Assembly: GCF_011927695.1 (NCBI RefSeq)
Contig: NZ_JAATJE010000001.1
Coordinates: 1,178,001-1,242,000, forward strand
Length of the DNA: 64,000 nt
Reading direction: 5' to 3'
From: Sphingomonas jejuensis
Lineage (GTDB): Bacteria; Pseudomonadota; Alphaproteobacteria; Sphingomonadales; Sphingomonadaceae
The position numbers and the translations under genes are program-made. Within the stretch, counting starts at the first letter, position 1, and the number at the start of each line of letters is the position of its first letter. This document shows positions 213 to 25,927 of this stretch, in pieces. The notes under the pieces were generated by a model. The model had not been told where the DNA came from and made no database searches. It saw nothing but the letters and a program-made list of their open reading frames with translations.

Positions 213-370
213 AATCGGGTAGGTCGATGCAGCCGTCATAAGGCGGGCGTCCGAACCTCCTCCGGATCGGATCAGGTGGAGGGGACCGTGCGCACACCAA
301 ATCTTAGAGCCTTCGGGCACAGGTGTCCGATGAGCCGGACAAGCCGATCGGCGCAGCGCATGGGACGGCG

Positions 371-1303
371 ATGAAGATCGAGACGAGCAGCGGATCCCTG
401 CATTCGGGCGGCGCGGTGTCGCTGACGCCGACGATGGCAACGGTGATCGAGCATATCAAAGCAAACTGGCTGCTGTGGATCGGGCTGGCCGCGCTGGTGC
501 TGCCCACCATGTTGTTCGTGGCCCGGGAAAGCTGGTCCACCGAGCAGGGCGCGCATGGCCCGATCGTGCTGGCGACCGGCCTGTGGCTGATCGCCCGGCA
601 GCTGGACGCCGCGCGCGCCGTGGCCGTGCCCGGATCGAACGCGGTGACGGCGCTGATCCTGGTGCCGAGCCTGCTGATCTACACCTTTTCGCGCATCACC
701 GGCATCGTCGAGATGGAGGGTTTCGCCGTGTACGGCGCGGTGATCGCCGCCATCTATTCGATCGGCGGCTCTCCGGTGCTGAAGCTGTTGTGGTTTCCGC
801 TCGTCTACCTTGCCTTCGTCTTTCCGCCGCCCGACACGATGGTGGCGATGGTCACGCAGCCGCTGAAGATCTGGATTTCCGAGGCGGCGATCGACCTGCT
901 CTATGCGCTGGGCTATCCGATCGCGGGGTCGGGCGTGACGATCCAGATCGGGCAGTATCAGCTGCTGGTCGCGGCGGCGTGCGCCGGTCTGAATTCGCTG
1001 ATCAGCCTGTCCGCCATCGGCCTGTTCTACGTATATATCCGGCACAACGCGAACTGGCGTTATGCCGCGCTGCTGATGCTGGCGATCGTGCCGGTCGCGA
1101 TCCTGGCCAACTTCATCCGGGTCATCATCCTGGTGCTGACGACCTATTATGCCGGTGAGGCGGTGGCGCAGGGCTTCGTCCACAATTTCGCGGGCCTGAC
1201 CATGTTCATCATCTCCGTGCTCGGCATCTTCGCGGTGGATGCGGCGGCCTCCCCGCTGCGGCGCCGACTGGCGCGCAAGCAGGAACAGGAGGGCGCACGA
1301 TGA
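371..1303 (+). CDS. xrtV: Exosortase, probably V-type (XrtV)
   Basis: Polytopic inner-membrane cysteine transpeptidase that is expected to process proteins carrying PEP-CTERM tails. The three family signature sites are visible: Cys204 in AACAGLNS, Arg250 in NFIRV and His271 in VHNFAG, all within hydrophobic segments. With the ATG at 371 the protein is 310 aa; the frame is open back to a GTG at 323, and another ATG exists at 434. I chose 371 because a G-rich stretch lies just upstream and the first membrane segment follows soon after. The stop overlaps the start of the EpsI-like gene (ATGA), so the two are translationally coupled. There is no fused EpsI domain, unlike XrtA. The V-type label is inferred from the separate EpsI gene and the sphingomonad EPS setting. 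Confidence 0.88.
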   Translation: MKIETSSGSLHSGGAVSLTPTMATVIEHIKANWLLWIGLAALVLPTMLFVARESWSTEQGAHGPIVLATGLWLIARQLDAARAVAVPGSNAVTALILVPSLLIYTFSRITGIVEMEGFAVYGAVIAAIYSIGGSPVLKLLWFPLVYLAFVFPPPDTMVAMVTQPLKIWISEAAIDLLYALGYPIAGSGVTIQIGQYQLLVAAACAGLNSLISLSAIGLFYVYIRHNANWRYAALLMLAIVPVAILANFIRVIILVLTTYYAGEAVAQGFVHNFAGLTMFIISVLGIFAVDAAASPLRRRLARKQEQEGAR

Positions 1304-2010
1304 GCAGCGACCAGGCGCACGGCGCCGGCCCTACCGCTCCCGCTTCTCCCATGCTGAACCGGCGCAACATGCTGATCGGCGGAGCGATGCTGGGCGCGGT
1401 CGGGATCGGCTATGCGCGCCAGCCGACCGTCAGCGAACCGCTGCTCGGCCGGCGGAAGCTGGACGACGTGGTGCCGAAGACGCTGGGGCCGTGGAAGTTC
1501 GAGACGGCGAGCGGGCTGGTGCTGCCGCCGCCCGACCAGATGCGAGACGAGATCTATTCGGACCTTCTGACGCGCGTCTACTATGCGCCGAACGGCGACG
1601 GGGTGATGCTGCTGGTCGCCTATAGCGGCTCGCAGGATGGCGTGATCCAGGTCCATCGGCCGGAGGTCTGCTATCCGGCGAGCGGCTATACGCTGACCAG
1701 GACGGAGGAGCGCGCGCTGGACGTGGGACCGCGCAAGATTCCCACCCGCTTCATCGTGGCGGAAGGCGGCGGGCGGCTGGAACAGCTGATCTACTGGACA
1801 CGGCTGGGGCCGAGCTTCCCGACCACCTGGCTTCAGCAACGCATCGACGTGATCGAGGAAAACCTGAAGGGGTTGATCCCGGACGGCGTGCTGGTGCGGA
1901 TTTCCACCAACGCACTGGATTCCGCGTCCGGCATCGCGATCATCGAACGCTTCGCCGCCGACTTCATCGGCGCGCTGCCCGCGGTGGGGCGGCGCGTGAT
2001 GATCGGCTGA
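1300..2010 (+). CDS. epsI: EpsI family protein, exosortase partner
   Basis: Periplasmic or membrane-anchored partner of the exosortase, 236 aa. An N-terminal NRRNML sequence followed by a hydrophobic Gly/Ala run looks like a signal or anchor (twin-Arg-like). The family hallmark HRPEVCYPASGY is at residues 119-130 with Cys124, followed by a YWTRLG segment typical of EpsI. EpsI-family proteins occur beside or fused to exosortases; their exact biochemical role is not settled. The gene overlaps the exosortase stop by 4 bases, so co-expression is likely. The next gene is on the other strand, which ends this short operon. Confidence 0.88.
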   Translation: MSSDQAHGAGPTAPASPMLNRRNMLIGGAMLGAVGIGYARQPTVSEPLLGRRKLDDVVPKTLGPWKFETASGLVLPPPDQMRDEIYSDLLTRVYYAPNGDGVMLLVAYSGSQDGVIQVHRPEVCYPASGYTLTRTEERALDVGPRKIPTRFIVAEGGGRLEQLIYWTRLGPSFPTTWLQQRIDVIEENLKGLIPDGVLVRISTNALDSASGIAIIERFAADFIGALPAVGRRVMIG

Positions 2011-5641: not shown

Positions 5642-5789
5642 GGCGCCCCCATAGAACGGCGCCGCCCGTCGGGCAAAAAGCAAAGCGTCCGACGGAGGCG
5701 CCACGGGTGTGAACGATTTTGAAGGGGACTTGCATCCATGCATCCGTTATGAGCGGCGCATGTTTGCGTTCACTGGGGGAAAGATCCTG

Positions 5790-6404
5790 ATGATCCCGTC
5801 TCGCCTTGTTCTGGCCTTGTCGTTGTTGCCGATTTCCGCCGCGGCCCTTGCCCAGAGCACCCCTGCCCCCCAGCCCGCCGGTTCGCCTGCCCCGCAATAT
5901 CCCGCCTACCGCATCAATCCCGGCGACCAGCTGGAAGTCTATGTCTGGGGCGAAGAGCGGCTGTCGCGCGAGATCCGCGTGCTGCCGGACGGCACTTTCT
6001 CCTTCCCGCTGGTCGGCCGCGTGCAGGCCGCCGGGCAGCTGCCGGCTGACATCGAGCGGCAGATCTCCGTCGGCCTGACCGAGCAGTATCGCGGACAGGT
6101 GCCGCAGGTGACCGTGTCGGTGACGGCGCCTGCCGGCTTCCAGGTGTCGGTGGCGGGCAAGGTCCGCACGCCCGGATCGATCCAGCCCGGCCGTTACATC
6201 AACGTGCTGGAGGCCGTGATCCAGGCCGGCGGCCCGACCGAATTCGCCGACACCAGCAACGTGACCATCCTGCGCAAGCAGGGCGCGGGGATCGAGCGTA
6301 TCCGCGTGCGCCTGTCCGATGCGCTGCGCGGATCGCCCAATGATCGCGACCGCGAGGGCGGCCTGCCCCAGCTGCTGTCCGGCGATACGGTGGTGGTCCC
6401 TTGA
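5790..6404 (+). CDS. Polysaccharide biosynthesis/export protein (Wza/GumB type)
   Basis: A 204-aa exported protein with a signal peptide (about residues 1-21, ending AALAQ), then a poly-export domain beginning YRINPGDQLEVYVWGE and a SLBB-like region with VSVAGKVRTPGSIQPGRY. It forms or is part of the outer-membrane conduit for EPS. There is no lipobox Cys, unlike E. coli Wza. The ATG at 5790 is preferred (GGGGGA upstream; signal peptide directly follows); longer starts at 5760 or 5709 would add a non-signal leader. The stop overlaps the ATG of the next gene (TGATG). It is the first gene of the operon export protein, beta-barrel, Wzz, tyrosine kinase. Confidence 0.88.
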   Translation: MIPSRLVLALSLLPISAAALAQSTPAPQPAGSPAPQYPAYRINPGDQLEVYVWGEERLSREIRVLPDGTFSFPLVGRVQAAGQLPADIERQISVGLTEQYRGQVPQVTVSVTAPAGFQVSVAGKVRTPGSIQPGRYINVLEAVIQAGGPTEFADTSNVTILRKQGAGIERIRVRLSDALRGSPNDRDREGGLPQLLSGDTVVVP

Positions 6405-7747
6405 TGCGCCTGCTTCCGCACCGCGCCGCCGTCGCGGTGGCGTCCGTCGCCGCCCTGACGGTCCCCACCGCGCTTGCGACCGCGCAGGTGGTGCGCAGCT
6501 CCGTCGACCTGAGCGCAGGTGCCGGATATGCGACCAACCCGTTCCTGATCAGCGGCGATGACACGGACAGCGCGCTGGTGGAGGTCTCGGTGCGCCCGGA
6601 GCTGCGCATCGAGGAGGAAAGCAGCGCGACGACGATCGCCGCATATGCGCGGCATCAGCAATATTTCGAGCGGTTCGACGGCAACACGGATTTCGGCGCG
6701 TCGGCGGACCACCGGACGCAGCTGAGCCCGCGCACCGCCATTCGTGCCGGCCTCGTTTTCGACAGCTCGATCCTGGGCGGATCCGATTTCGTAACCCCGA
6801 CCTTCACGCCGCCCGTGGCGCCGGGCACGACCGTGCCGGGCACCGGTGGTGCGGTCGTCCCTGGATCAGGCGTGACGCCGGGGACAGGTGTGGGCGTCGT
6901 GCCGGGCACGGGAACCGGCGTCACGCCGGGCACGGCTCCTGGCACGCCGATCGTCGATCCGGTGCTTGGCGACATCGGCCTGATCGGGTCGCGGTCTCGT
7001 CGAACAACGTTTGGCGGTTCGCTTGGCGCCGACTTCACACTCGGGCCCCGTGACACGTTGAACGTCGGCGTGAGTGCGCAGCGATCGACGTACGGCAACC
7101 AGATTTTTGGTGCCGACTTCAGCCAGTATGTCGCAAACGCCGGATATTCTCGCCAGATCAACGAAGGTCTGTCGGTCGGCGCGCAGGGCATCATCAGCAT
7201 CGTCGACTACGACGAAGCGCCTGACGTCACCGTTTATCAGCCGCAGCTGACCTTCACGCAGCGGCTGTCGTCTGCCTGGACCCTGACCGGAAGCGTCGGC
7301 GTTGCATTCGTGGACAACAAGGGCGGGTTCGGATTGCCGTCCGATCAATCCACCAGCATCACCGGAAGCCTGTCGGCCTGTCGGCAGCAGGTGCGGAGCA
7401 CGCTTTGCCTGAGCGGTCTGCGGAACACCTCCCCGTCGGGTCTTGGCGACGTGCGCACGGTGACATCGCTGAACGCGAGCTACAACTATCAGCTTGGCGA
7501 ACGCGACGGCCTCACCTTGAACGCCGGCTACTCACGCGCCGACGGCGGCAGTCTGGCGGCAGCCAACCAGCTGGTCGGCGATCAGGACTTTCTCTCCGCG
7601 TCGGCGAGCTGGTCCCGGCAGGTTGCCGAGCGGCTGCGCGTGAACGCGACCGTCGGTTACCGCGACATCTTCGCCGATGATTTCGACCGCGACGCCGATA
7701 TCAGCGGCCTGATCGGCATCGGCTATCTTCTGGGTGACCGTCGATGA
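6404..7747 (+). CDS. Outer-membrane beta-barrel protein of the EPS export operon
   Basis: A 447-aa protein with a cleavable signal (about 1-27, ending ALATAQ) and a run of alternating amphipathic strands typical of beta-barrels, ending in a GLIGIGYLLGDRR strand. Residues about 133-185 are an unusual Pro/Gly/Thr-rich insert made of VVPGTG- and VTPGTG-like units. It resembles the PEP-CTERM/EPS-locus outer-membrane proteins of sphingomonads (gellan-type clusters also have a barrel here). Its role is probably in passage of polymer across the outer membrane, but this is inferred. The start at 6404 overlaps the previous stop; the next gene overlaps its stop by four bases. Confidence 0.75.
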   Translation: MRLLPHRAAVAVASVAALTVPTALATAQVVRSSVDLSAGAGYATNPFLISGDDTDSALVEVSVRPELRIEEESSATTIAAYARHQQYFERFDGNTDFGASADHRTQLSPRTAIRAGLVFDSSILGGSDFVTPTFTPPVAPGTTVPGTGGAVVPGSGVTPGTGVGVVPGTGTGVTPGTAPGTPIVDPVLGDIGLIGSRSRRTTFGGSLGADFTLGPRDTLNVGVSAQRSTYGNQIFGADFSQYVANAGYSRQINEGLSVGAQGIISIVDYDEAPDVTVYQPQLTFTQRLSSAWTLTGSVGVAFVDNKGGFGLPSDQSTSITGSLSACRQQVRSTLCLSGLRNTSPSGLGDVRTVTSLNASYNYQLGERDGLTLNAGYSRADGGSLAAANQLVGDQDFLSASASWSRQVAERLRVNATVGYRDIFADDFDRDADISGLIGIGYLLGDRR

Positions 7748-9225
7748 GCAGCAACGCACAGCGCCTGGAGCGTGAGGACAGCCTGTCCGACAGCTTCCTG
7801 GCACATCTCCCCGTGATCTTCTGGCAGCGCCGGTGGTTCATCATCGTGCCGGCGGTGCTGCTGTCGATCGCCGGCATCGCCGCGGCGTTCCTGCTGCCGA
7901 CGACCTACCAGTCACGCGCCGTGCTTCTGGTGGAATCGCAGGAGCTGCCGAAGGAGATCGTCGGGACGCCGGTCACCGACGTGATCGATCAGCGCATCGC
8001 GCGCATGCGGCAGCAGATCCTGAGCCGCCCCGACCTGATCGAGCTGATCCAGACCAACGACCTCTACGCCGACAAGCGGCAGAGCGAGCCCCTGTCCCGC
8101 GTGATCGAGGACATGCGGGAATCGACCAGCATCGACGCGATCAACGCCGATATCGAGCAGGGGCAGAACGGGTCCAACACGATCGCCTTCTCGCTCGCCT
8201 TCAACTATCCGGAAGCCGCCAAGGCGCAGCTTGTTGCGCAGTCTTTCGTCGAGCGCTTCCTGGAGCTCGATTCCGCACAAAGCGAGGAGCAGACCGCCAA
8301 CACCGTGTCGTTCCTGACCGAGCAGGCCGAGCAGGTCGGCACGCAGCTGCGCGACGTCGAAGGGCAGATCGAGCGGATCAAGGCCGAAAACGGGCTGGCG
8401 CTTGTGTCCGGCGGCTTCACCGGCCTTGCCGGTGGCGGCGGCGGATATGAGGCGCAGATCGCCGCGCTGCAGCGCGAAAACAGCGTCTTGACGGCGCAGC
8501 TGAGCCAGCAGGCGACCGCCGATACCCGTGACCCGGTGGTCGTCAGCGCGGAAGCGGCGCTGGCGTCGGCGCGGGCTGTCTACTCGGACAATCATCCGGA
8601 CGTTCGCCTTGCCGAACAGCGCCTTGCCGAGGCGCGATCCTTCGCACGGTCGAATTCGTCGAAGCAGAGCGCGCCGGCGGGCGCCGCCATCCGGGCGCAG
8701 ATCTCTGGCAACAATGCCGTGATCGCGCAGCTGCAGGCGGCCCGCGCCGCCGACACCGCGCGTGCGGGTGCGGCCATGTCCGCCCAGTCGCAGGCGCCGC
8801 TCGTGATGGAGCGGGTCAACCAGCTCCAGGCGCGTGCGGACGGGCTGCGCAGCAACTACGAGCGCATCTCGCAGCAGCTGATGAGCGCGCAGGCGGCAGC
8901 GCAGATGTCGAGCGAGCAGCGCGGCGAACGGCTGTCGGTGATCGACCCGCCGGTGGTGCCGGACCGCCCTGCCTCCCCCAACCGCCTGATGCTGATCGCC
9001 GGCGGTATCCTGGGCGGGATCGGGCTTGGCCTCGCGCTGGCGCTCGCGGTAGAGCTGCTGCTGCAGCCGATCCGCGGCGTCGCGTCGCTCAACAAGCTGC
9101 TCGGCGTGCCGCCGATGGTGGTGGTGCCGACGATGCGTCCCGGTGAGAGCCGGCGGGCACGCATCCTTAACCGTTTCAAGTCTCTGGCGTTCTGGCGTCG
9201 GCGACGGACTGCGCGCGCAGCCTGA
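7744..9225 (+). CDS. Wzz-like polysaccharide chain-length determinant
   Basis: A 493-aa inner-membrane protein with a Wzz N-terminal domain, membrane helices near residues 32-53 (FIIVPAVLLSIAG) and 415-440, and a long periplasmic coiled-coil region between them that contains heptad-like Gln/Ala-rich segments. A Pro-rich stretch (VIDPPVVPDRPASPN) precedes the second helix, as in Wzz/GNVR proteins. There is no fused kinase domain; the kinase is the next gene, as in CpsC/CpsD and GelC/GelE arrangements. It should set EPS chain length and link the kinase to the export pore. The C-terminal basic tail is cytoplasmic. Confidence 0.88.
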   Translation: MSSNAQRLEREDSLSDSFLAHLPVIFWQRRWFIIVPAVLLSIAGIAAAFLLPTTYQSRAVLLVESQELPKEIVGTPVTDVIDQRIARMRQQILSRPDLIELIQTNDLYADKRQSEPLSRVIEDMRESTSIDAINADIEQGQNGSNTIAFSLAFNYPEAAKAQLVAQSFVERFLELDSAQSEEQTANTVSFLTEQAEQVGTQLRDVEGQIERIKAENGLALVSGGFTGLAGGGGGYEAQIAALQRENSVLTAQLSQQATADTRDPVVVSAEAALASARAVYSDNHPDVRLAEQRLAEARSFARSNSSKQSAPAGAAIRAQISGNNAVIAQLQAARAADTARAGAAMSAQSQAPLVMERVNQLQARADGLRSNYERISQQLMSAQAAAQMSSEQRGERLSVIDPPVVPDRPASPNRLMLIAGGILGGIGLGLALALAVELLLQPIRGVASLNKLLGVPPMVVVPTMRPGESRRARILNRFKSLAFWRRRRTARAA

Positions 9226-9264
9226 GCGGCGTTTTCCCGCAGAGTATCATTCGGGGGTTTGTTC

Positions 9265-10059
9265 GTGTTCGAGACCAACATCATCCGGCCGCAGAGCCTG
9301 ACGTCGATCCTTCCGGAGCCTGGCCAGGCGCTGGCGGGCACGATCGGCACGAAGGCGCTTCCGGAAGAGAATATCTTCGGCTTCAACAGCCGGGATCAGC
9401 GGTCGCGTCCGTTCAACCTGCTGCGATCGCAGCTCCTCAAGACCGCGCGTAGCCGCGGATGGCGCCTGATCGGCGTTACCTCGGCAACGCCGCGGGTCGG
9501 CAAGTCGTTCATCGCGTCCAATCTGGCGGCGGCGCTTGCCCGGACGCCGGAGCTGCACACCTATCTCCTCGACCTGGACCTTCGCCGTTCCACCATCGCC
9601 AAGAATTTCGGCCTTCAGGGCGATCGTGGAATCGCGGACTTTCTCGACGGAGAGATCGAGGACCTGCGCGGCATCTCGTGGAACGTCGAGGCAGGCGCCC
9701 TGACGATCGTGCCGAGCTTCTCCAACGACGTCGCATCGGCCGAGGTGCTGGCGGGCCCGCGCATGGACGCGCTGATCGCCGCGATGCGCGCGCTGCCCGA
9801 AGGCATGCTCTGCATCCTCGACCTTCCCCCCGTTTTCGCGAACGACGATGCCGTCATCATCGCGCAGAAGATCGACGCCTACATCCTGGTCGTCCAGGAG
9901 GGCGCCACGACGGTCAAGCAGGTGCGCGACTCGTTCAACCTGCTGCAGCCGGCACCGTGCCTGGGTACCGTCCTCAACCACTATAATGGCGGGCTGATGG
10001 GCGACGATTACGGCTATGGCTACGGCCAGAGCGGCAAGTACGCGGAATATTACAAGTAG
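9265..10059 (+). CDS. CpsD/CapB-type tyrosine autokinase
   Basis: A 264-aa cytoplasmic BY-kinase. It has a P-loop at TPRVGKSF (Lys80, Ser81), a Walker A' at LLDLDLRR (Asp103, Asp105), a Walker B at CILDLPP (about 184), and a Tyr-rich tail with seven Tyr in the last 18 residues, the usual autophosphorylation cluster. The P-loop has PRVGKS where BY-kinases usually have PGEGKS. GTG 9265 is preferred over TTG 9259 because GGGGG lies seven bases before it. Phosphorylation cycles with the Wzz partner are thought to control EPS export. It is the last gene of the export operon. Confidence 0.87.
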   Translation: MFETNIIRPQSLTSILPEPGQALAGTIGTKALPEENIFGFNSRDQRSRPFNLLRSQLLKTARSRGWRLIGVTSATPRVGKSFIASNLAAALARTPELHTYLLDLDLRRSTIAKNFGLQGDRGIADFLDGEIEDLRGISWNVEAGALTIVPSFSNDVASAEVLAGPRMDALIAAMRALPEGMLCILDLPPVFANDDAVIIAQKIDAYILVVQEGATTVKQVRDSFNLLQPAPCLGTVLNHYNGGLMGDDYGYGYGQSGKYAEYYK

Positions 10060-10205: not shown

Positions 10206-10348
10206 CAATTTGTTAACCATGTTGAGCCACCAGCCACTAACTAGCTCGACACACGAAATTTCCACCCAAAAACGCGATGTTGCTGCCCGACCCGCCCGCT
10301 CCCTGCCGGAGTGGGCGACGCTTGAGCCGTGGATCGCAAGGACCTATC

Positions 10349-12013
10349 ATGACCGAAGCAAAGACGACGACCATCGCCGCCGACAAGCGTCGGGGCAACC
10401 GGGCCCTGCTGGCTGGATCAGCGGCGTTCCTGGTGATTGGAGCCATGACCGCCCATGCCGCATCGAGTGCAACGAGCGTGAGCAAGAAGCGCACCGTATC
10501 GAGCCTGATGTCGGCGGCGCTTGCCTCCATCATGGTCAACAAGACCCCGATCGCCGCTCCGGCGCCGACGCCTGCCCCCGCGCCGGCTCCTGTCGCGTCC
10601 AGCGGCGATGCGGCCTTCAAGGTCGGTATCAACCTGACGGGCGTCGACTATTTCAACAACGACCGGCCGTTCATGAACCTGCTCTATGGCGGCCACTGGC
10701 AGCTGAACCGCGCTGGTGGAAGCTACCGCGACATGCCGGCGGAACATCTCGATGCGAATGGCTGGGTGAAGTCTCTTCCCGCAGGCGGCGAGGCTGTCCG
10801 CCTCCTGAGCCAACCGGCAGTGCCGGTGGGCGGCGCTGATTTCATCTGCCGCTATGAGGGTTCTGGCACATTCAACATCAACGGCGTTCAGAACGTCGTG
10901 CGAGGACCGAATCAGGTCCGCTTCCGGGTGAATACGCGGTTCCCGAACCGGGAGAACATCGCGATCTACTACGAGAATGTTTCCGGATCGGACTACATCC
11001 GCAACATCGATTGCCGCGAGGTCTCCGCTGCCCGCAATCAGACCTTCTCGCCCGACTATGTGAGTTCGCTGCGGGGCTTCAAGGTCCTGCGCTTTATGGA
11101 CTGGCAGGCAACCAACGGCAATTCCATTCGCACCTGGGCAAACCGCAGCCGTCCCGGCGGCAGCGACGTCCTGAAGAACGATGCCGTGCCCGTCGAGTAT
11201 ATGGTCGAGCTGACGAAGCTCGTTGGTGCCGATCCGTGGTTCAACATCGGCTGGAACTCCGATGATGACTATATCCGTCGTTTCGCCGAGTATGTGCGCG
11301 ACAACGTCCCGTCGGACCGCAAGATCTACGTCGAGACCAGCAACGAGGTCTGGAACCCGATCATGCCGGTTTCTCCGCAAGCCGAGCAGGAAGGTCTCGC
11401 GCGTGGACTCTCGACCAACCCGTTCGAGGCGAAGCTGAAGCGTTACTCGCAGCGGTCGGCCGAAGTGATGCGGATCTGGACCGAAGTGTTCGCCGGGCAG
11501 CAGCAGCGCTTGGTCCGGCTCGTCGCCACCCAGCATGCGAATCCCTGGACCACTGAGGTCGTCCTTGGCTTCGGAGACACGAAGAACTGGATCGATGGCG
11601 TCGCCACCGCTCCCTATTTCGGCTACTCGGTCAATAACGATGATCGTCGGGGCGATCTCACCGCCATGTTTGCCGCCCTTCGCTCCGAGATTACCCCGGT
11701 CATCACGACGGCTCTGCAGCACAAGCGTCTGGCGACGTCTTACGGCAAGCGCTACATGACGTATGAAGCCGGCCATCACATCCTCATGCGAAACGATGTT
11801 CCGTTGCTCATACAGATGAACCGGGACGAGCGGATGGCCGACATCTACCGTCAGTACATGTCGCAGTGGCAGGCCCAGGTCGGGGATGTGCTGGCGATGT
11901 TCTCCCACAACAGCCCGACCACCGAGTGGGGATCGTGGGGCCTGACCGAGTATCGCGGCCAGCCCTTGTCCGAAGCGCCCAAGGCACGCGCTGTTCGGGA
12001 ATTCTTGAACTAA
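10349..12013 (+). CDS. Secreted glycoside-hydrolase-like protein of the EPS locus
   Basis: A 554-aa protein, starting at the ATG 10349 with AAGGA upstream. It has a signal or anchor helix (about residues 19-37), a spacer, and an Ala/Pro repeat linker at residues 69-81. The main domain begins near residue 88 (FKVGINLTGVDYF). Two sites suggest a clan GH-A-like TIM barrel: SNEVWNP at 331-337 (Glu333 as possible acid/base) and YEAGHH at 472-477 (Glu473 as possible nucleophile). I do not recognise a numbered GH family. Its place between the export operon and the glycosyltransferases suggests trimming or release of the EPS in the periplasm or outside. Activity is inferred. Confidence 0.65.
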   Translation: MTEAKTTTIAADKRRGNRALLAGSAAFLVIGAMTAHAASSATSVSKKRTVSSLMSAALASIMVNKTPIAAPAPTPAPAPAPVASSGDAAFKVGINLTGVDYFNNDRPFMNLLYGGHWQLNRAGGSYRDMPAEHLDANGWVKSLPAGGEAVRLLSQPAVPVGGADFICRYEGSGTFNINGVQNVVRGPNQVRFRVNTRFPNRENIAIYYENVSGSDYIRNIDCREVSAARNQTFSPDYVSSLRGFKVLRFMDWQATNGNSIRTWANRSRPGGSDVLKNDAVPVEYMVELTKLVGADPWFNIGWNSDDDYIRRFAEYVRDNVPSDRKIYVETSNEVWNPIMPVSPQAEQEGLARGLSTNPFEAKLKRYSQRSAEVMRIWTEVFAGQQQRLVRLVATQHANPWTTEVVLGFGDTKNWIDGVATAPYFGYSVNNDDRRGDLTAMFAALRSEITPVITTALQHKRLATSYGKRYMTYEAGHHILMRNDVPLLIQMNRDERMADIYRQYMSQWQAQVGDVLAMFSHNSPTTEWGSWGLTEYRGQPLSEAPKARAVREFLN

Positions 12014-12052
12014 GGCCTTTGATTGACGGTGACCGCTGGTAGGAGACGAGAC

Positions 12053-13069
12053 ATGCGCTCGCTCCCGCCAGTCGGCATCGTCATCATCGGCCGTAACGAG
12101 GGTGAGCGCCTCGTCCGCTGCCTCGCCTCGGCAGGTGGCGCACACGCCATCGTCTATGTCGACAGCGGCTCCACCGACGGCAGCGTGGCGGCGGCGCGGG
12201 AGGCCGGCGCAGAGGTGGTCGAGCTTGACGTGTCGGTGCCGTTCACCGCGGCACGGGCCCGCAATGCCGGGCTTGCGCGGCTGCTGGAGATCGCGCCGGA
12301 CGCGCGCTTCGTCCAGATGGTGGATGGCGACTGCGAACTGGCGCGCGACTGGATCGGCGTCGGATCGGCCGCGCTGGAAGACGACGGGACGCTTGCCGCG
12401 GTATTCGGCCGGCGGCGGGAACGGCATCCGGACGCCAGCCTCTACAACGCGATGTGCGACGAGGAATGGGACGTGCCGGTGGGCCCCGTGCGCGCCTGTG
12501 GCGGCGACGCGCTGTTCCGCATCGCCGCGTTGCAGGAGGCGGGCGGCTACGACCCGACGCTGATCGCGGGCGAGGAGCCTGATCTCTGCTGGCGGATGGG
12601 CGCGCGTGGCTGGGCGATCAGGCGCCTGCCTGCCGAAATGACGCTGCATGACGCGGCCATGACCCGTTTCAGCCAGGCGCACCGCCGGTCAAAGCGCGCG
12701 GGGCACGCCTTCGCCGAGCTTGTCTGGCGCCACGGGTCGGTCGCAGATCCGTCCTGGCGCCGTGCGGTCAAGAGCACGCTTCTGTGGGGAATAGGTCTTC
12801 CGGGGATCGCCGTGGCTGGTGCGCTGGGTGCGTTCGCGTGGCTGCCGGCGCTGATCCTTCCGATCGGCGTGGCCGGCCTGTTCGGCGTTCAATGGCTGCG
12901 GATCGCGTCGGCGAAGCGCCGGGCCGGCTTCGGCGCGCGTTATGCGCAAGGGGCGGCCGGGGTGCTGCTTGCCACCAAGATCTCCCAGGCGGCAGGGCTG
13001 CTCCGCTTCCATCTGAACCGCCTGCGCGGGCGCCGCGGCGGGCTGATCGAATACAAGGCTTCCGGCTGA
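12053..13069 (+). CDS. Glycosyltransferase family 2, membrane-linked
   Basis: A 338-aa GT-A fold enzyme. It has VGIVIIGRNEGERLVRCL at the N-terminus, the nucleotide-site Asp in YVDSGSTDGS, a DGDCEL metal-binding motif and an EEPDLCWRM acceptor-site block. The C-terminal 80 residues contain hydrophobic segments that anchor it. I chose ATG 12053 because AGGAG lies seven bases upstream; a TTG at 12023 would add ten residues. Its stop and the next start share TGATG, so it is coupled to the acyltransferase gene. It probably adds one sugar of the EPS repeat; donor and linkage are unknown. Confidence 0.85.
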   Translation: MRSLPPVGIVIIGRNEGERLVRCLASAGGAHAIVYVDSGSTDGSVAAAREAGAEVVELDVSVPFTAARARNAGLARLLEIAPDARFVQMVDGDCELARDWIGVGSAALEDDGTLAAVFGRRRERHPDASLYNAMCDEEWDVPVGPVRACGGDALFRIAALQEAGGYDPTLIAGEEPDLCWRMGARGWAIRRLPAEMTLHDAAMTRFSQAHRRSKRAGHAFAELVWRHGSVADPSWRRAVKSTLLWGIGLPGIAVAGALGAFAWLPALILPIGVAGLFGVQWLRIASAKRRAGFGARYAQGAAGVLLATKISQAAGLLRFHLNRLRGRRGGLIEYKASG

Positions 13070-13575
13070 TGGGCGCTCTGTTCGACCAAATCCGGGAGGA
13101 TTACCGGGCGCACGGCCGCGACTGGACACGGCCCGGATTTCGGGCGGTGGCCACCCACCGGTTCGGCGTGTGGCGCATGGACGTCCGCAGCAAGTGGCTG
13201 CGCGCGCCGCTGAGCCTCGCCTATCGCTGGGCCTTCCGGCATTGCCGCAACGTCTATGGCATTGAGCTTCCCTACACGGTCCGGCTCGGGCGGCGCGTGA
13301 TCGTGGAGCATCAGGGCGGGATCGTGGTTCACGGAGCCACCGTCATCGGTGACGACTGCATCATTCGCCAGAACTGCACGCTGGGCATCCGGTCGCTCGA
13401 TGCGCTCGATGCCGCGCCGATCCTTGGCCGACGCGTCAATGTCGGTGCGGGCGCTGCAATCCTGGGCCGGATCGAGATCGGCGACGACGCGGCCATCGGC
13501 GCCAATGCGGTGGTGCTCTCAGACGTGCCGGCAGGCGCGCTTGCCGCCGGCGTCCCTGCCCGCCTGCTCCGCTAG
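13069..13575 (+). CDS. Serine O-acetyltransferase-like hexapeptide acyltransferase
   Basis: A 168-aa left-handed beta-helix protein. The N-terminal part is helical (DQIREDYRAHGRDW), and the C-terminal half has hexapeptide turns such as IVVHGATVIGDDCIIRQNC and VGAGAAILGRIEIG, with a GAGAAI loop typical of the CysE branch. CysE itself is longer and makes O-acetylserine. This short version in a sugar cluster more probably acetylates a sugar or supports EPS decoration. It overlaps the upstream GT2 stop by one base and meets the flippase gene tail to tail (13572-13575 shared). Confidence 0.75.
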   Translation: MGALFDQIREDYRAHGRDWTRPGFRAVATHRFGVWRMDVRSKWLRAPLSLAYRWAFRHCRNVYGIELPYTVRLGRRVIVEHQGGIVVHGATVIGDDCIIRQNCTLGIRSLDALDAAPILGRRVNVGAGAAILGRIEIGDDAAIGANAVVLSDVPAGALAAGVPARLLR

Positions 13576-15077
13576 ACGACGGTCGCCGCCTCGCCGGGCT
13601 GACGTTCGGCGCCGGCGTCGCCTGCCACGGTCTCGTCCCCCCGGTGCGCGCGCGGCAGGCCGTAGCGCCTGAACATGAGCAACAGCGCGGCGCCGCCGAC
13701 GATCCCGAGGATGAGGAGCGCCGCGACCGGACCGAGCGCTGCCCAACTGACCTGCGCCAGACCGTAGAAGACTGCCGACAGGACGATGAAGGCGAGGAGC
13801 GGGATCGCCTCTCCGCGAAGTCGCGTGAAGTGGAAGCCGCGGGCAAGGACCACATAGGCGAAATAGACGATGATCTGGGTGACGACGTAGATCTGGATGT
13901 AACGCATTGCATCGGCTTCGCGGCCGTAGATCAGGATGCCGATCAACGACAGGAAGATGGCCAAGCGGGAGACCTCACCCAGCGCGTCGAACATCTGCCG
14001 GCGGCTGACGATGAAGGGCTGTCGCAACGCCGCCTCGCTGAGATTGAAGAAGATCGCCACGGCCATCAGCGGCGAGAAGGTGGCGGCCAAGGCGAAGTCG
14101 GCAGGGTAGACCCAGCTGAAGAAGGGTCCCGACGCCGCAACGACGCCCGCGCACAGGATCGCGGCATAGGTCATCGCGATCATCCGTGGGCGCAGCGCAT
14201 CGACATGGTCGAGCCGGTCGCCGTCGTGGAGGATCCTCTGGATCGCCGGCATGAAGACCTGGAAGGCCCAGCGCTGACCAAGCGCCAGCGGGATCATCGC
14301 CAGCGTCTGCGCGATGGTGTAGACGCCGAACAGACTGGCACCGAAGAACAGCGGAAAGACGATCTTGTCGACCTGCGCGCCCATGAACGAGAACATGGAC
14401 GCGACCTGGAACCAGCGCATGAAGCGGAGCTGTTCCGACATGAAGCCGCGCTGCATGAAGATGCGCGGGCGATAGCTGTCGCCCCAGTAGCTCAGGATGA
14501 CATAGGCGATGCCGCCGATGAGGCCGCCCCACACGATCGCCCACGGACTTGGATAATAGAGGCCAACCGCAATGATCCCGATCGCGCTGAGCACCTGGCG
14601 CGCGACCTCGAGGTTCATCAGAAGTTCAGGGCGCCCTTTCCGGACCTCAAGGATCGGTCGAAGGCTCGCCAACCCGTTCAGCAACAGGCTGAGGCTGCCC
14701 GCGCCGAGCAGGAAAGTGAGCTCCGGCTCCCCATAGATCCAGGCGATCAGCGGGCCGAGCGCGAAGGACAAGGCGGTGATGACGACGCCGCGGCCGAACT
14801 GAAGAGTCCAGAAGCTGTCCAGTTCGGCGCGCGGGATATCCCCCTTGCGACCGACCATGCCGACATACATCGCGGTATCGAACAGGTTCTGCAGCCCCAC
14901 CATGACCGTGGTGGTAATCGCAACGAGGCCGAAAGCTTCCGGGTAGAGGACGTAGGACAGCGCCACGTTGCTGACGAGGCGCAGCACATAGGACGCGAGC
15001 GTGACGAGGAAGACGGCCATGTCCGCCTCCCCCAACAAGCGTCGAAGGCCGCTCAATCGGCTTGTGGTCGCGGTCAT
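13572..15077 (-). CDS. Wzx-like oligosaccharide flippase
   Basis: A 501-aa polytopic membrane protein of the MOP/polysaccharide-transporter type. It has about 12-14 hydrophobic segments and a family-like start (a short amphipathic helix, then MAVFLVTLASYVLRL). Such proteins move undecaprenyl-linked repeat units across the inner membrane. The start at 15077 overlaps the stop of the upstream glycosyltransferase gene (ATGA). The open frame extends to 15557 but only as antisense to that gene. It is the last gene of a minus-strand operon of five genes (19684 to 13572). A polar, acidic C-terminal tail lies in the cytoplasm. Confidence 0.85.
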   Translation of the reverse strand: MTATTSRLSGLRRLLGEADMAVFLVTLASYVLRLVSNVALSYVLYPEAFGLVAITTTVMVGLQNLFDTAMYVGMVGRKGDIPRAELDSFWTLQFGRGVVITALSFALGPLIAWIYGEPELTFLLGAGSLSLLLNGLASLRPILEVRKGRPELLMNLEVARQVLSAIGIIAVGLYYPSPWAIVWGGLIGGIAYVILSYWGDSYRPRIFMQRGFMSEQLRFMRWFQVASMFSFMGAQVDKIVFPLFFGASLFGVYTIAQTLAMIPLALGQRWAFQVFMPAIQRILHDGDRLDHVDALRPRMIAMTYAAILCAGVVAASGPFFSWVYPADFALAATFSPLMAVAIFFNLSEAALRQPFIVSRRQMFDALGEVSRLAIFLSLIGILIYGREADAMRYIQIYVVTQIIVYFAYVVLARGFHFTRLRGEAIPLLAFIVLSAVFYGLAQVSWAALGPVAALLILGIVGGAALLLMFRRYGLPRAHRGDETVAGDAGAERQPGEAATVV

Positions 15078-16105
15078 TTGTTTTCCTGCCAGAGCGGCGG
15101 CGAGAGGCGGTGGCGGGTCCAGGCCGTATCGCTCCGACGCGCATCGGTCGCCTGCGGCCAGCCGTGACGCAGCCGGTCCCGCCCCGCAAGGGGAAGGCCC
15201 GTTGCCTCGCGCCGATCTATAAGATGGCGCAGCCGCCAGAGAAGATGGCCGAAGAGCCACGCGACGGTCGCGCTTGCCGCAGCGGCCTTGCCCTGGGTCA
15301 GCGCGAAGAACCGGCGCTGCGATGCATACCAATAGGGTGGGTTGCGGCGCGCCACCTCGTTGGTAACCCCGGTGGAGGCGCCGCCGAGATGCATCACCCG
15401 GCTGCGTGGGTCGTGCAGGATGGTCCACCCCTTCGCACGCATCCGCCACATCAATTCGATTTCTTCGAAATAGAGGAAGAAGCCGTCGTCGAAGATGCCG
15501 GCGTCGCGGAGCGCGTCGGAGCGGAGCAGCACGCAAGCTCCGGTCGCCCAGTCGCATTCCACGAGATCGTCGGCCGGAGGCATGCCGCCGCCGGATGTGC
15601 CGAGCAGCTTGTCGACCAACCCGGTGCGGGCGCCGCGCACCAGCTCCCGCCGCGGGGTTGGAAAGCGGAAGTGGCTGCCCGCGCGCGAGCCGTCCGGATC
15701 GATGATCTGGCTGCCGACCGCGGCGGCGCGGGGTTGGGTGCGCATGTGGGGGATCAGTCGGGCGATCGCGCCGGGCTCTATCACTGCGTCAGGGTTCAGA
15801 AGATAGATGAACTCGGGAGGTTCGGGAGCCTGGAGAAGCGCCAGGATCGCCTGGTTGTTCGCCCAGCCATAGCCGCCGTTGATCGGAAGCGGCATCGCCT
15901 CTGCCCAGCCGGAGAACGCGGGATCAGCAAGGCCATCCGCGATCCGGTCGGCCGAGCCGTCGCCAGAGCCGCCGTCGACGAGGACGAGCGACAGGTTCGG
16001 GAGCAACTCGCGCTCAGCGATCAGGGCGCGGGCGCAATCCAGCGCAAGATCGGGGGTCCGATAGTTGACGGTGACGACGGCAATCCTTGCGAAGTCAGGG
16101 GTCAT
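15074..16105 (-). CDS. Glycosyltransferase family 2, rhamnosyltransferase-like
   Basis: A 343-aa GT2 enzyme of the WbbL/rhamnosyltransferase type. Motifs in order are [24 protein letters not shown], a [13 protein letters not shown] metal-site block, [14 protein letters not shown] and [14 protein letters not shown] with RAKGW. These are characteristic of enzymes that add L-rhamnose or similar sugars from dTDP donors. This agrees with the rmlA gene at the window start, though substrate specificity cannot be read directly. Its start at 16105 overlaps the stop of the upstream GT4 gene, and its stop overlaps the start of the flippase gene. The C-terminal 60 residues are basic. Confidence 0.85.
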
Positions 16106-17400
16106 GCCAGTTCCCCGAACGGCTGGGGCCTCGACCCGCGCCCAAGAACCCAGTCATACACTTGGGCGACCTGCGCGGCCTTTGCGGGCCAGCTGAAGCA
16201 ATCGAGCGCATGATCGCGGGCTGCTGTCGCCCGCGCGGCCATGCCGGGACGGTCGGCGGCGATCGCGATCAGCGCGGCCCGCACGGCAGCGACGATCTCA
16301 TCGCGGGACCCGATCGGAACCTTGTAGCCGGTGCGATCGTCGACAAGCTCGCCAGGGCCGGCATAATCGCAGACCAGCGGTGCAAGACCAAGGGCCATTG
16401 CCTCCAGCACCGCTCCGCCACCGAATTCCCGGACGCTGGGAAAGCCGAACAGGTCGCACCTGCCCGCAACGGCCGGAACGTCGCCATGCGCGACCCAGCC
16501 GTGGAAGCGGACTGCCGCGGCCACGCCCTGTGCATCGACCAGCGCCGCCAGATCCGCCATCATCGGGCCATCGCCGACCACGTCGATGGTCGCGCGTCCG
16601 TCCTTCAGCAGCGGCAAGGCGGCCTCGATCAACATGTCGCATCCCTTGTAGGGAACGAGGCGGCCGATGAAGGCGATGCGGAGACGATCGGACGGCGCAC
16701 GCGGGATCTGCGTGCCGAACCGTGCCGGATCAAGACCGTTTTCCGGCATGTAGATGCGCTTCGGGTGGAAGCGCGCCGGAACCTCGCCGGCGGTGTGACG
16801 CGACCCGCACAATATGGCTGCCGCGTTCGCCAGGGTGGCACGCCGTCCCGGCATGAGCTTGTAGAGGCCGCGGACATAGGACAGCCACTCACGCTCGCGC
16901 CGCCGCTCCGCATCGAACCCGGCCGGCCACGGTACGCCGCCATTGAGGGGGCCGAGCACGAAGGGAACGCGGGCCTTTCGGCAACGCCGGGCGATGCTGC
17001 TGGGCGTCGTCGGGGTCAGCGGCGTGACGCGGTGGACGATGTCGAACCGTCCCGCGCGGATGTCGCGGCCGAAACGCGCCCACACCGCCCGCTCGAACAA
17101 GGGATAGGCGACCGCCGACAGGGCAGTGAGCATGGTCCACCCCTTGCCGGCACCGCCGCGCAGCCGCTCGGCCAGCTTCCACATGGGCGCTGCCAGACGC
17201 TCGTTGTCAATCGCGGTGAAATCGCGGCCCTCGACCAGGCCTGCGCGCAGGAACGCGTCACGGTTGCGCACCTGGGTGACGATGTGGACGTCCGCGACCT
17301 GACGCAGGGCGCTTGCAAGGGACCAGCCGACCAGCGGCACGCTGACCCACTCGGGATTAGCGGCCTCGGCAATCACCAGCACGCGCGGGCGGATCGTCAC
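16102..17400 (-). CDS. Glycosyltransferase family 4
   Basis: A 432-aa GT-B fold enzyme. The N-terminal domain has [12 protein letters not shown] and a Gly-rich acceptor region with [11 protein letters not shown]. The C-terminal domain has [30 protein letters not shown] and [19 protein letters not shown], the last being the EX7E-type nucleotide-sugar site. Expected to use an activated sugar to extend the lipid-linked EPS repeat on the cytoplasmic face. It overlaps both neighbours by four bases, so it is in the middle of the coupled minus-strand operon. Donor unknown. Confidence 0.88.
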
Positions 17401-18593
17401 GGGGCGATCACCGCCATCAGCTTGGCCGCCTCGCCGCGGGTGCTGAAGTGCGCCTCGGCATGCGCCCGCGCAGCGGCGCCTATCGTGCGTCGCAAGTCGG
17501 TATCGCGGGCCAGCGCCGCCATGCGGTCGGCAAGCGCGGCCACGTCCTTTTGCGGGGTGAGGAAGCCGGTGCGGCCGTCGTCGATCATCTCTCCGGTGCC
17601 ACCGATCAGCGAGCAGATCACGGGCAGGCCCGCGCCCATGGCCTCCATGACCGACACCGGCGCGGCCTCGCCCAGGCCGTGGCTCGGCAGCACGAACGCG
17701 TCGGCGGCGAGAAGGTGATCGACCACCTGATCGGCGGATCGAGTGCCATGCAGCGTCACGCGGCCGACCAGGCCGAGGTCGGCGATGTCACGTTCGATCT
17801 CGTCGCGCATGTGGCCCTGCCCGACGATGTCGTAGCGGATGTCGAGGCCCGCCTGCACGAGACGCGCGATCGCCTCGAGCGCAAAGCGGTGACCCTTGAA
17901 AGGATCGAGCCGCGCCACAGTCAGGAGCCGCAGCGTTCCCCCGGCGCTCCAGACGCGGTCCTGCCAGCCGGTGAACTTGTCCAGGTCGGCGCCCATGCGG
18001 ATCATGGAAAGGGGGGTGCCCACGTCGCCGACGCGTTCGCGCACCTGATCGATTAGCGCATGGGTCACGCACGTCACCGCCTCAGCATGACGAAACTTGA
18101 AGGCATGGCCGTCGCCGTAAACGTCCAGATCGCCGTGGAGCGTCAGGCTGTAGCGGGGCCCACCCAGCAGGCGGGAGAAGGCGAGCACGTAGCCGACGTC
18201 GGCACAGCTGTGCCCGTGGACATGGCGCAGGCCGCGCCTGCCGGCCCGGCGCGCGAGGACGGCGCCGATCACGGCAAGAGCTGTCAGCCGTGCAATCGTC
18301 CGTGGCGATCCCCCCTGCCCCTTGTCGGCCGCGGCGCGGCGCGCGAGCAGGACCAGCCTTGGCAGGGACGGCAGGATCGCCGCCAGTTCGGCCGGCCGCG
18401 GCGGCATCAGATAGTCGGTCCGCGCCACCGCCTCGTCCGCAAAGGCGTGCGGGCAGGAGGCGGTCGGGCGCCGGGTCGACAGGATCGCCAGCGGCAGGCC
18501 GGCTTCCTCGATCGCACGGAGTTCCCGCCAGAAGAAGATGTGCGTCTGGGTCGGAAACTCGGGCACCAGATAGCCGACAACGGGCTTGGTCAT
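17397..18593 (-). CDS. Glycosyltransferase family 4
   Basis: A 398-aa GT-B enzyme of the group with an N-terminal [20 protein letters not shown] segment. Later motifs are [46 protein letters not shown] and [19 protein letters not shown] with the donor-site Glu residues. Similar proteins are found in colanic-acid-like and sphingan EPS loci. The start at 18593 is chosen because it overlaps the acyltransferase stop; the frame stays open upstream only as antisense or shadow. Likely adds a sugar during repeat assembly; specificity unknown. Confidence 0.87.
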
Positions 18594-22277: not shown

Positions 22278-23813
22278 ATGGGTGCAGAACCAAGACTGGG
22301 CGTAAGCGGATCGGACGGCAGCATGCCGCCCGCGCTTTCGTCGTCGCTGCCGCCCGTGATCGACACCGCGGACCTGGCAACCGAGGCACCCGCCGGACGG
22401 CGCAGCCCGATGCTCCTCGAGGTGTCGACCCTGCTGCTGCGGTTGTTCGAGTTCCTGGCGGTCACCGGCAGCGCGGCGCTGATCACCTCCGTCGTGGGCG
22501 GGCTCGGCGACCAGAGCGACGTCAGCCGTTACATCAACGCCTCGATCGTCGCCGGCTTCTTCTACGCGGGCCTGGCCGAGGTGATCGGCGCGTATGACAC
22601 GGATGTCCGCTTCTCCGTCAGGCGTGCGTGGGGCCGCGTGCTGACGGCATGGCTGTCCACCGGCATGTTCATGCTGACGATGGGCTTCCTCCTGAAGGTG
22701 TCCGACGATTTCTCACGCGGGTGGGGCATCGGCTGGTTCGTGACGGGCGCGGGGGCGCTGTGCCTGGTGCGGGCGGCCGGCACCGGCTGGATGCGCAGCA
22801 TGAAGCGCCAGGGCGTCTTCAACCAGCGTGTCGCCATTTTCGGCGCAGGGTCGCAGGGCGACCGGCTGGCCGGCTACATCATCGGCAACGAGAAGCTGAC
22901 CATCGATCTGGTCGGCTTCTTCGACGATCGCATGCCCGACCGGCTGCCCGACCGGGACGTCAAGCTGGCGCTGAAGGTCAACCTGCGCGACCTGGTGAAG
23001 CGCATCCGCGATGGCGAGGTGGACCAGGTCATCGTCGCGCTGCCCTGGTCTGCGGAGACGCGGTTGCAGGAGGTGGTCGCCGCGCTCGCGATCACGCCGG
23101 TGCGGATCAGGCTGGCGCCCGACCTCGCCTCCTTCGCCTTTGCACAGCGGCCGGTGGTGCTGCTTGGCGACCTGCCGGTGATGACGCTGTTCGAGCGTCC
23201 GATTTCCGGCTTCGACCAGATCATCAAGAAGATCGAGGACATGACGATCGGCCTGATCGCGCTGGTGATCGCATCACCCGTCCTGATCGTGGCGGCCATC
23301 GCCATCAAGCTGGACAGTAAGGGGCCAGTCTTCTTCCGCCAGCCGCGCGAAGGCTTCAACAACCGGACCTTCCACATCTGGAAGTTCCGGTCGATGCGGA
23401 CCGACCATTGCGAAACTGACGGCATCAAGCAGGCGACGCGCCGCGACCCGCGCATCACCCGCGTGGGTGCGGTGCTGCGCCGGACCAGCATCGACGAGCT
23501 GCCGCAACTGTTCAACGTGCTGGCCGGCGAGATGTCGCTTGTGGGGCCACGCCCGCATGCCCCCTCCACCCGCGCCGGCGACCGCCTGTTCAGCGAGGTG
23601 GTCGCCACCTATGCCGCCCGGCACAAGGTAAAGCCGGGGATCACCGGCTGGGCGCAGGTGTCCGGTTGGCGCGGCGAGACCGACACGGAGGAAAAGCTGC
23701 TGAAGCGGCTCGAGTGCGATCTTTATTATATCGAGAACTGGTCGGTCGGCCTCGACATCTACATCCTGCTGCGCACCGCGCTGACCGGCTTCATCTCCAA
23801 GGCCGCCTACTGA
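22278..23813 (+). CDS. WcaJ-like EPS priming sugar-phosphate transferase
   Basis: A 511-aa polyprenyl-phosphate sugar-1-phosphate transferase that starts repeat-unit assembly on undecaprenyl phosphate. It has four or five N-terminal membrane helices, a Rossmann-like CoA-binding-type middle (VAIFGAGSQGDRLAGYI), one further helix near 322-344, and the catalytic domain with GPVFFRQPREGF, WKFRSMRTD, DELPQLFNVLAGEMSLVGPR and ITGWAQVSGWRG. The length fits the WcaJ/GumD type. It is preceded by a 102-bp gap and meets the next gene tail to tail with a 7-bp overlap. The sugar is probably glucose or galactose. Confidence 0.9.
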   Translation: MGAEPRLGVSGSDGSMPPALSSSLPPVIDTADLATEAPAGRRSPMLLEVSTLLLRLFEFLAVTGSAALITSVVGGLGDQSDVSRYINASIVAGFFYAGLAEVIGAYDTDVRFSVRRAWGRVLTAWLSTGMFMLTMGFLLKVSDDFSRGWGIGWFVTGAGALCLVRAAGTGWMRSMKRQGVFNQRVAIFGAGSQGDRLAGYIIGNEKLTIDLVGFFDDRMPDRLPDRDVKLALKVNLRDLVKRIRDGEVDQVIVALPWSAETRLQEVVAALAITPVRIRLAPDLASFAFAQRPVVLLGDLPVMTLFERPISGFDQIIKKIEDMTIGLIALVIASPVLIVAAIAIKLDSKGPVFFRQPREGFNNRTFHIWKFRSMRTDHCETDGIKQATRRDPRITRVGAVLRRTSIDELPQLFNVLAGEMSLVGPRPHAPSTRAGDRLFSEVVATYAARHKVKPGITGWAQVSGWRGETDTEEKLLKRLECDLYYIENWSVGLDIYILLRTALTGFISKAAY

Positions 23814-25884: not shown

Positions 25885-25927
25885 CTCAGGCAGAACAAGC
25901 TGAGACGCCGTGCGGCGGGGGATGATG

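Follow-up and report, generated by a model that had tools for sequence, protein, structure and literature searches.

The protein encoded at 10349-12013 of the window, which is the whole 64,000-nucleotide stretch of the Sphingomonas jejuensis genome analysed here, belongs, judged by its structural model, to a GH-A-type family that has no name as yet and in which a beta domain interrupts the barrel after strand 1. We consider it probable, with real room for doubt, that this is a periplasmic or otherwise exported retaining endo-glycosidase whose predicted activity is to trim the EPS made by its own gene cluster, in the manner of PslG. Direct support exists for the gene itself, for its family and predicted fold, for the conservation of two glutamates and where they lie relative to the strands, and for the recurrent EPS neighbourhood; for the window protein we infer hydrolysis, retention and endo action.

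Gene and protein layout

The open reading frame described in the earlier note is real, with its stop at 12013, and the numbering of Glu333 and Glu473 given there is correct. The start codon, ATG at 10349, is preceded at 6 bases by AAGGA, a Shine-Dalgarno-like sequence, and the in-frame ATG at 10277 has no AAGGA-type site. The frame is not a chance one, because the gene is single-copy in its own genome (genome search) and has matches across genomes, plasmids, named loci and viral contigs. A pseudogene was ruled out by the open frame and the retained catalytic residues. Promoter and terminator scans around the gene gave counts near those of shuffles.

Both the Ala/Pro linker and the N-terminal hydrophobic stretch (residues about 19-33) that had been pointed out earlier are present in the sequence, and one catalytic region of about 470 residues, which contains SNEVWNP (residues 331-337) and YEAGHH (residues 472-477), follows the linker. 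The N-terminal helix is as likely to be a cleavable signal peptide as a membrane tether, and tethering to the inner membrane through it is possible. The relatives have mixed N-termini (lipobox-like, twin-arginine-like and plain hydrophobic) in a crude scan of stop-to-stop frames: of the 59 cellular rows, 48 have a hydrophobic stretch ahead of the domain and 11 a lipobox pattern, which is spurious in some cases.

Predicted fold and active-site residues

An AlphaFold2 model was obtained from an alignment of 56 sequences (model numbering plus 84 gives protein numbering) with a pLDDT of 93.3 and a pTM of 0.92; single-sequence folding reached a pLDDT of only 32. According to DSSP, the window protein is modelled as a (beta/alpha)8 barrel whose eight strands alternate with helices, and it ends with the helix following strand 8. 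Glycosidases accounted for all of the 50 matches listed by Foldseek. VIA-align, which re-examines Foldseek's own matches, gave Z scores of 20.4-26.0 for the best 50 rows; among the matches listed, the best was to GH51 (Z 26.0, 3.0 A, 290 residues), and a bacterial heparanase, which we take to represent GH79, and a GH39 xylosidase had Z scores of 24.1 and 21.9, respectively.

Among the non-redundant members of the family, Glu333 is kept in 111/111 and Glu473 in 110/111, and E329, N332 and Y472 are each found in 111/111. Two further residues, R248 past strand 2 (110/110) and Y423 past strand 6 (110/111), are similarly conserved. Enzymes of clan GH-A have an Asn-Glu pair with the acid/base after strand 4, the nucleophile Glu after strand 7, and arginine and tyrosine at sites such as these. 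The pattern of N332-E333, E473, R248 and Y423, combined with the barrel, therefore points to a protein of clan GH-A type, and the strand positions in the model imply that Glu333 and Glu473 share one cleft. The earlier note had proposed a GH-A barrel and named any fold other than a TIM barrel as evidence against it; the predicted fold is a TIM barrel, and the two glutamates come after strands 4 and 7. A divergent relative of 715 aa on a long branch (L216) has Ala at the position of Glu473, and is either a non-catalytic member or an alignment error.

Family assignment by sequence

The protein had also been called a member of an unassigned family, and this description holds, with no significant match in Pfam, NCBIfam or PDB sequences. 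The window protein matched 0 Pfam families and no NCBIfam model at E up to 10. Nothing significant was obtained with 40 cellular members in Pfam (best single-member E 0.053), with 56 members in NCBIfam (best single-member E 0.0054, to superoxide dismutase) or with 9 members in PHROGs (best E 0.089), and comparison of PDB sequences with the 40-row family profile (A2) gave no match at E up to 10. The best PDB sequence match of the window protein itself, a dioxygenase at E 0.06, was taken as chance. In hhalign, the probability was 0.5% against GH5 (10 sequences) and 0.2% against GH39, the latter a weak test with only two GH39 sequences; because these probabilities are below 1%, any relation to GH5 or GH39 would be at the level of the clan. 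In the short alignment to GH5, YMTYEAGHH lies opposite LMITEFGIV with the Glu aligned, which is suggestive only.

None of the Pfam models of GH5, GH39 and GH51 finds a match in the own genome. A search with PF22848 (GH51) gave three partial matches among 80 genomes, of which only L182 reads as an arabinofuranosidase-like protein, the frames chosen for L183 and L184 being poor, and GH39 was found in none of 40 genomes in a first search and in 3 of 115 in a second. In the open-access literature, the motif strings of the window protein occur in no paper, and among the papers listed none describes a family of this kind in EPS clusters or in phages, its inserted domain, or its joint occurrence in EPS clusters and phage contigs.

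The EPS cluster in the window

The gene was said in the earlier note to lie between EPS export and transferase genes, and profile searches agree, with Wza/OPX, Wzz and kinase-like genes upstream and a GT2 gene downstream (Table 1). Several further GT4 and GT2 genes are present within the EPS region. The names EpsE, EpsH and EpsU come from the Myxococcus EPS cluster; other glycosyltransferases of the window resemble EpsH and EpsU below cut-off. The true start of the acetyltransferase frame at 12784..13575 is probably near 13069. No Wzy polymerase was recognised among the open reading frames with at least 6 predicted membrane spans at window positions 1-31300, and the three Wzy_C (PF04932) matches of the genome are all outside the window (C1:969303, C1:1565951 and C2:476262). 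A GH3 gene at 25910-28453 closes the EPS region, and its product could process oligosaccharides freed by the GH-A-like enzyme. The short OPX next to a possible outer-membrane barrel resembles the composite translocon outlined in a published report (PMC9601211).

Table 1. Features of the GH-A-like gene and of the surrounding EPS cluster (window positions).
Feature	Position	Strand	Basis or remark
Exosortase of the cluster	323..1303	+	PF09721
Exosortase-associated EpsI, V-type	1300..2010	+	NF045608 above cut-off
Polysaccharide export protein (Wza/OPX, short)	5709..6404	+	PF02563; TIGR03027 below cut-off
Possible outer-membrane beta-barrel partner of OPX	6401..7747	+	Weak TIGR03016, 32.3 bits vs cut-off 90.85
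Wzz-type chain-length determinant	7744..9225	+	PF02706; TIGR03007 below cut-off
Tyrosine-kinase-like Wzz partner	9259..10059	+	TIGR03018 and TIGR01007 below cut-off
GH-A-like exported protein gene	10349..12013	+	554 aa; ORF, Shine-Dalgarno-like site, homologues over residues ~85-554
Export signal: basic n-region KRRGNR, hydrophobic core, AHA/AS site (residues 35-39)	10349..10459	+	Sequence
Ala/Pro-rich linker	10544..10603	+	Sequence; residues about 66-85
Predicted barrel strand beta1, GINL motif region	10619..10633	+	DSSP; residues 91-95; strand-1 assignment is our own reading
Predicted beta-rich domain between barrel strands 1 and 2	10697..11020	+	DSSP; residues about 117-224
Rest of predicted (beta/alpha)8 barrel, strands 2-8	11051..12007	+	Model, structure comparison
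Glu333 codon, predicted acid/base	11345..11347	+	Three residues past beta4 (model 242-246), after Asn332
Glu473 codon, predicted nucleophile	11765..11767	+	Two residues past beta7 (model 384-387)
GT2 glycosyltransferase directly downstream	12023..13069	+	PF00535; likely start 12056
Hexapeptide (CysE/EpsC-like) acetyltransferase	12784..13575	+	PF00132; NF041874 below cut-off, from residue 133 of ORF
Wzx flippase	13572..15557	-	PF13440
EpsE-type glycosyltransferase	17397-19520	-	NF041876, 404.6 vs cut-off 400 bits
Acyltransferase-family gene	18590-19684	-	
WcaJ-type initiating sugar phosphotransferase	22278..23813	+	TIGR03023 above cut-off

Distribution of relatives

The family is widespread but patchy, as the match counts across genomes, plasmids, named loci and IMG/VR indicate. 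Among 298 genomes of the same family, 32 have a match, the own genome included; four of these matches are weak and cover N-terminal parts only (G064, G255, G265 and G268), which leaves 27 other genomes with solid matches. In the order sample, part of which coincides with the same-family one, 10 of 246 genomes matched, two of them weakly, and in the phylum sample 12 of 349, the own genome again included. Relatives are also found in 25 plasmid records, in eight named loci (Planctomycetota, Spirochaetales, a Sandaracinaceae MAG and alphaproteobacteria) and at 145 places in viral contigs of IMG/VR, 80 of them retained. By sequence, the cellular relatives nearest to the window protein are L129-L133, with 41-45% identity. 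The best 20 of the 25 plasmid records label the relatives as hypothetical protein, calcium-binding protein and similar, or leave them without annotation.

Some members have additional sequence elements. RTX-like Gly-Asp repeats are located C-terminal of the catalytic region in L040, L004 and L005, and the calcium-binding protein annotation belongs to plasmid matches H5, H8 and H10. Several longer relatives have GNSL/GHSL motifs outside the catalytic region, N-terminal in L207, L208, L210 and L212 and C-terminal in L009; these motifs recall SGNH hydrolases, which would fit an acetylated substrate.

EPS genes around relatives

Stretches of up to 20 kb around 33 relatives were scanned with the EPS proteins of the window for eight classes counted as core (Wza, outer-membrane barrel, Wzz, kinase, Wzx, WcaJ, exosortase and EpsI). 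The relatives came from 28 genomes, of which 27 belong to the same family and one to the same order, and 20 stretches at hand-picked positions in 11 of the 28 genomes served as controls. At least two core EPS-assembly classes were present in 16/33 relatives' stretches and in 1/20 controls, which had three classes, and at least one class was present in 20/33 and 1/20, respectively (Fisher p 0.0009 for at least two classes and 0.00004 for at least one, with related loci and hand-picked controls). Counted per genome, 16/28 have at least two core classes and 20/28 at least one, and the nearest core gene is within 1.5 kb in 12 of the 33 stretches. The EPS association that the location had suggested in the earlier note therefore recurs beyond this locus, yet 13/33 stretches, those of the nearest cellular relatives L129-L133 among them, have no core EPS class, so that other substrates within the family are possible.

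In only five of the 33 stretches (L142, L143, L151, L152 and L157) did the scan detect an exosortase homologue. Gaps of 4 and 14 bases separate the open frame of the relative from that of the exosortase homologue in L151 and L152, which suggests a close link between the two. When 12 named and plasmid loci, some of them shorter than 6 kb, were scanned in the same way, only L125 (Shinella) had a set of export genes, and five further loci had one or two single matches. The Shinella plasmid copy is flanked by an O-antigen-ligase-family gene and an export gene, and the copy on Roseobacter pTB2 is near two glycosyltransferase genes.

Viral relatives and tree

For 14 viral loci, one or two neighbours each were compared with PHROGs. 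A head, packaging or tail match was nearby in six loci (L045, L047, L053, L054, L105 and, weakly, L119), a nucleotide-metabolism or sugar-epimerase match in two (L084 and L094), and nothing telling in the remaining six (L051, L078, L114, L118, L122 and L123). The viral evidence rests on uncultivated contigs, because the window protein, L094 and L122 as queries had no match in the annotated phage collection, and some of the viral contigs may contain bacterial DNA. Several viral-contig proteins are long and multi-domain (L093, which is cut by the contig end, L094, L095, L114 and L123), a number of them with repeats. Signal-peptide-like N-termini are seen in viral-contig copies that group near the window protein in the tree (L045, L046, L050, L051, L054 and L055); with such a start, the infected cell may export the phage copy, which would then not be part of the virion.

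In a quick, unrooted maximum-likelihood tree with SH-aLRT values as the only support, 17 label changes are needed for the 55 viral rows, at least 11 of them forced by well-supported branches. The smallest well-supported set around the window protein consists of 30 rows, of which 12 are viral. The label sphEPS needs 8 changes for 14 rows. This suggests repeated exchange of the gene between cells and phages, with some contigs possibly bacterial and no direction given by an unrooted tree, and in phages the domain may serve as a depolymerase.

Proposed function and alternative explanations

In the mechanism that we favour, export would bring the protein into the periplasm, where it would be either free or kept next to the export complex by its N-terminal helix. 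There the acid/base Glu333 after strand 4 and the nucleophile Glu473 after strand 7 would cleave the probably acetylated EPS of the cluster, and this cleavage would set the chain length or the release of the EPS. The substrate and its acetylation, the periplasmic location and the role in length or release are what we infer for this protein; acetyl groups on the EPS are expected because an acetyltransferase is encoded two genes downstream and an acyltransferase-family gene lies further along. That acetyltransferase and the GDSL hydrolase gene that adjoins relative L132 were counted for the EPS reading. A broader proposal, which we put forward tentatively and as somewhat less likely than not, is that EPS clusters and phages exchange a new GH-A-type glycosidase family, for periplasmic trimming during export in cells and for stripping of EPS by phages. 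In that case, phage copies would have a signal peptide or lie inside long tail-like proteins.

Three other explanations were weighed against trimming of the cluster's own EPS. An enzyme that degrades foreign polysaccharides as food, with its location in an EPS cluster accidental, would agree with the nearest cellular relatives, L129-L133, whose stretches have no core EPS genes; we regard it as unlikely, since the EPS neighbourhood recurs across the tree, as seen from the changes of the sphEPS label, and exceeds that of the controls, and all nameable neighbours of the window gene are EPS genes. Retaining GH-A chemistry permits transfer, and hence the same site could move an EPS chain to an acceptor, such as a chain, a surface anchor or an exosortase-sorted protein. 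Such a transglycosylase would fit the exosortase and EpsI genes of the cluster and the closely spaced exosortase homologues of L151 and L152, but the rarity of that homologue among the relatives' stretches and an acceptor that is hypothetical make it improbable as well. Least credible to us, and very unlikely, is a phage-derived gene that now serves the host, for example by blocking other phages. Viral and cellular members are indeed intermingled, also within the well-supported set that holds the window protein; however, the nameable neighbours are EPS genes, the Pfam and NCBIfam scans of window proteins met no phage gene, and the unrooted tree carries no direction of transfer.

Endo-glycosidic trimming of the EPS remains our preferred reading, and it bears on a wider question. 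Glycosidases in EPS clusters are already known, as in the published accounts of PslG and of the GH16 and GH10 enzymes of promonan (PMC11340318, in part), and the reason for a hydrolase in an EPS cluster is still called elusive in another report on PslG (PMC9075953). A family that is widespread, lacks a model in Pfam and NCBIfam, and combines conserved catalytic-type residues with a recurrent EPS context offers a testable case outside Pseudomonas and is a possible source of EPS-specific enzymes. If the sharing with phages is true, the type of EPS would be linked to the phages able to breach it, and knowing the EPS enzyme of a host would make it easier to foresee which depolymerase its phages carry. 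The sequences suggest that cells and viruses may employ the same tool to trim or to breach bacterial slime.

Comparison with known systems

GH51 arabinofuranosidases have the barrel in common with the window protein, as the best structural match reported above indicates. Their catalytic Glu residues are located after strands 4 and 7, and a beta-sandwich domain follows the barrel. In contrast, the window protein has no beta domain after the barrel, its beta-rich region is placed by the model between strands 1 and 2, and it has no Pfam or PDB sequence match.

PslG of Pseudomonas aeruginosa, a GH39 member encoded in the psl cluster, is like the window protein, in its published description, an EPS-cluster glycosidase with two catalytic Glu residues and an N-terminal signal; this likeness is drawn from that description, and PslG is absent among the 50 structure matches listed. 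Parts of the reports on PslG describe it as a retaining endo-glucosidase (PMC11912335), found at full length in the inner membrane and in a shorter form in the periplasm, and state that Psl production depends on its catalytic Glu and its inner-membrane association (PMC6813494). The window protein differs from PslG in that it has no Pfam or hhalign link to GH39 (a weak test with a two-sequence profile), has its predicted beta domain after strand 1 and ends right after the barrel.

PrmQ (GH16) and PrmN (GH10) of Sphingomonas sp. LM7 are glycosidases of the Wzx/Wzy-type promonan EPS cluster and belong to other families (PMC11340318). Deletion of prmQ gave a rugose phenotype and deletion of prmN had no effect on morphology; since a related EPS system could thus lose its GH10 enzyme without visible consequence, the role of the window enzyme may be small (PMC11340318). 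WceF of Pantoea stewartii, as part of its report describes, is an EPS-cluster enzyme with the fold of a phage depolymerase (tailspike), but it is a trimer of parallel beta-helices, whereas the window protein is modelled as a TIM barrel (PMC7949094).
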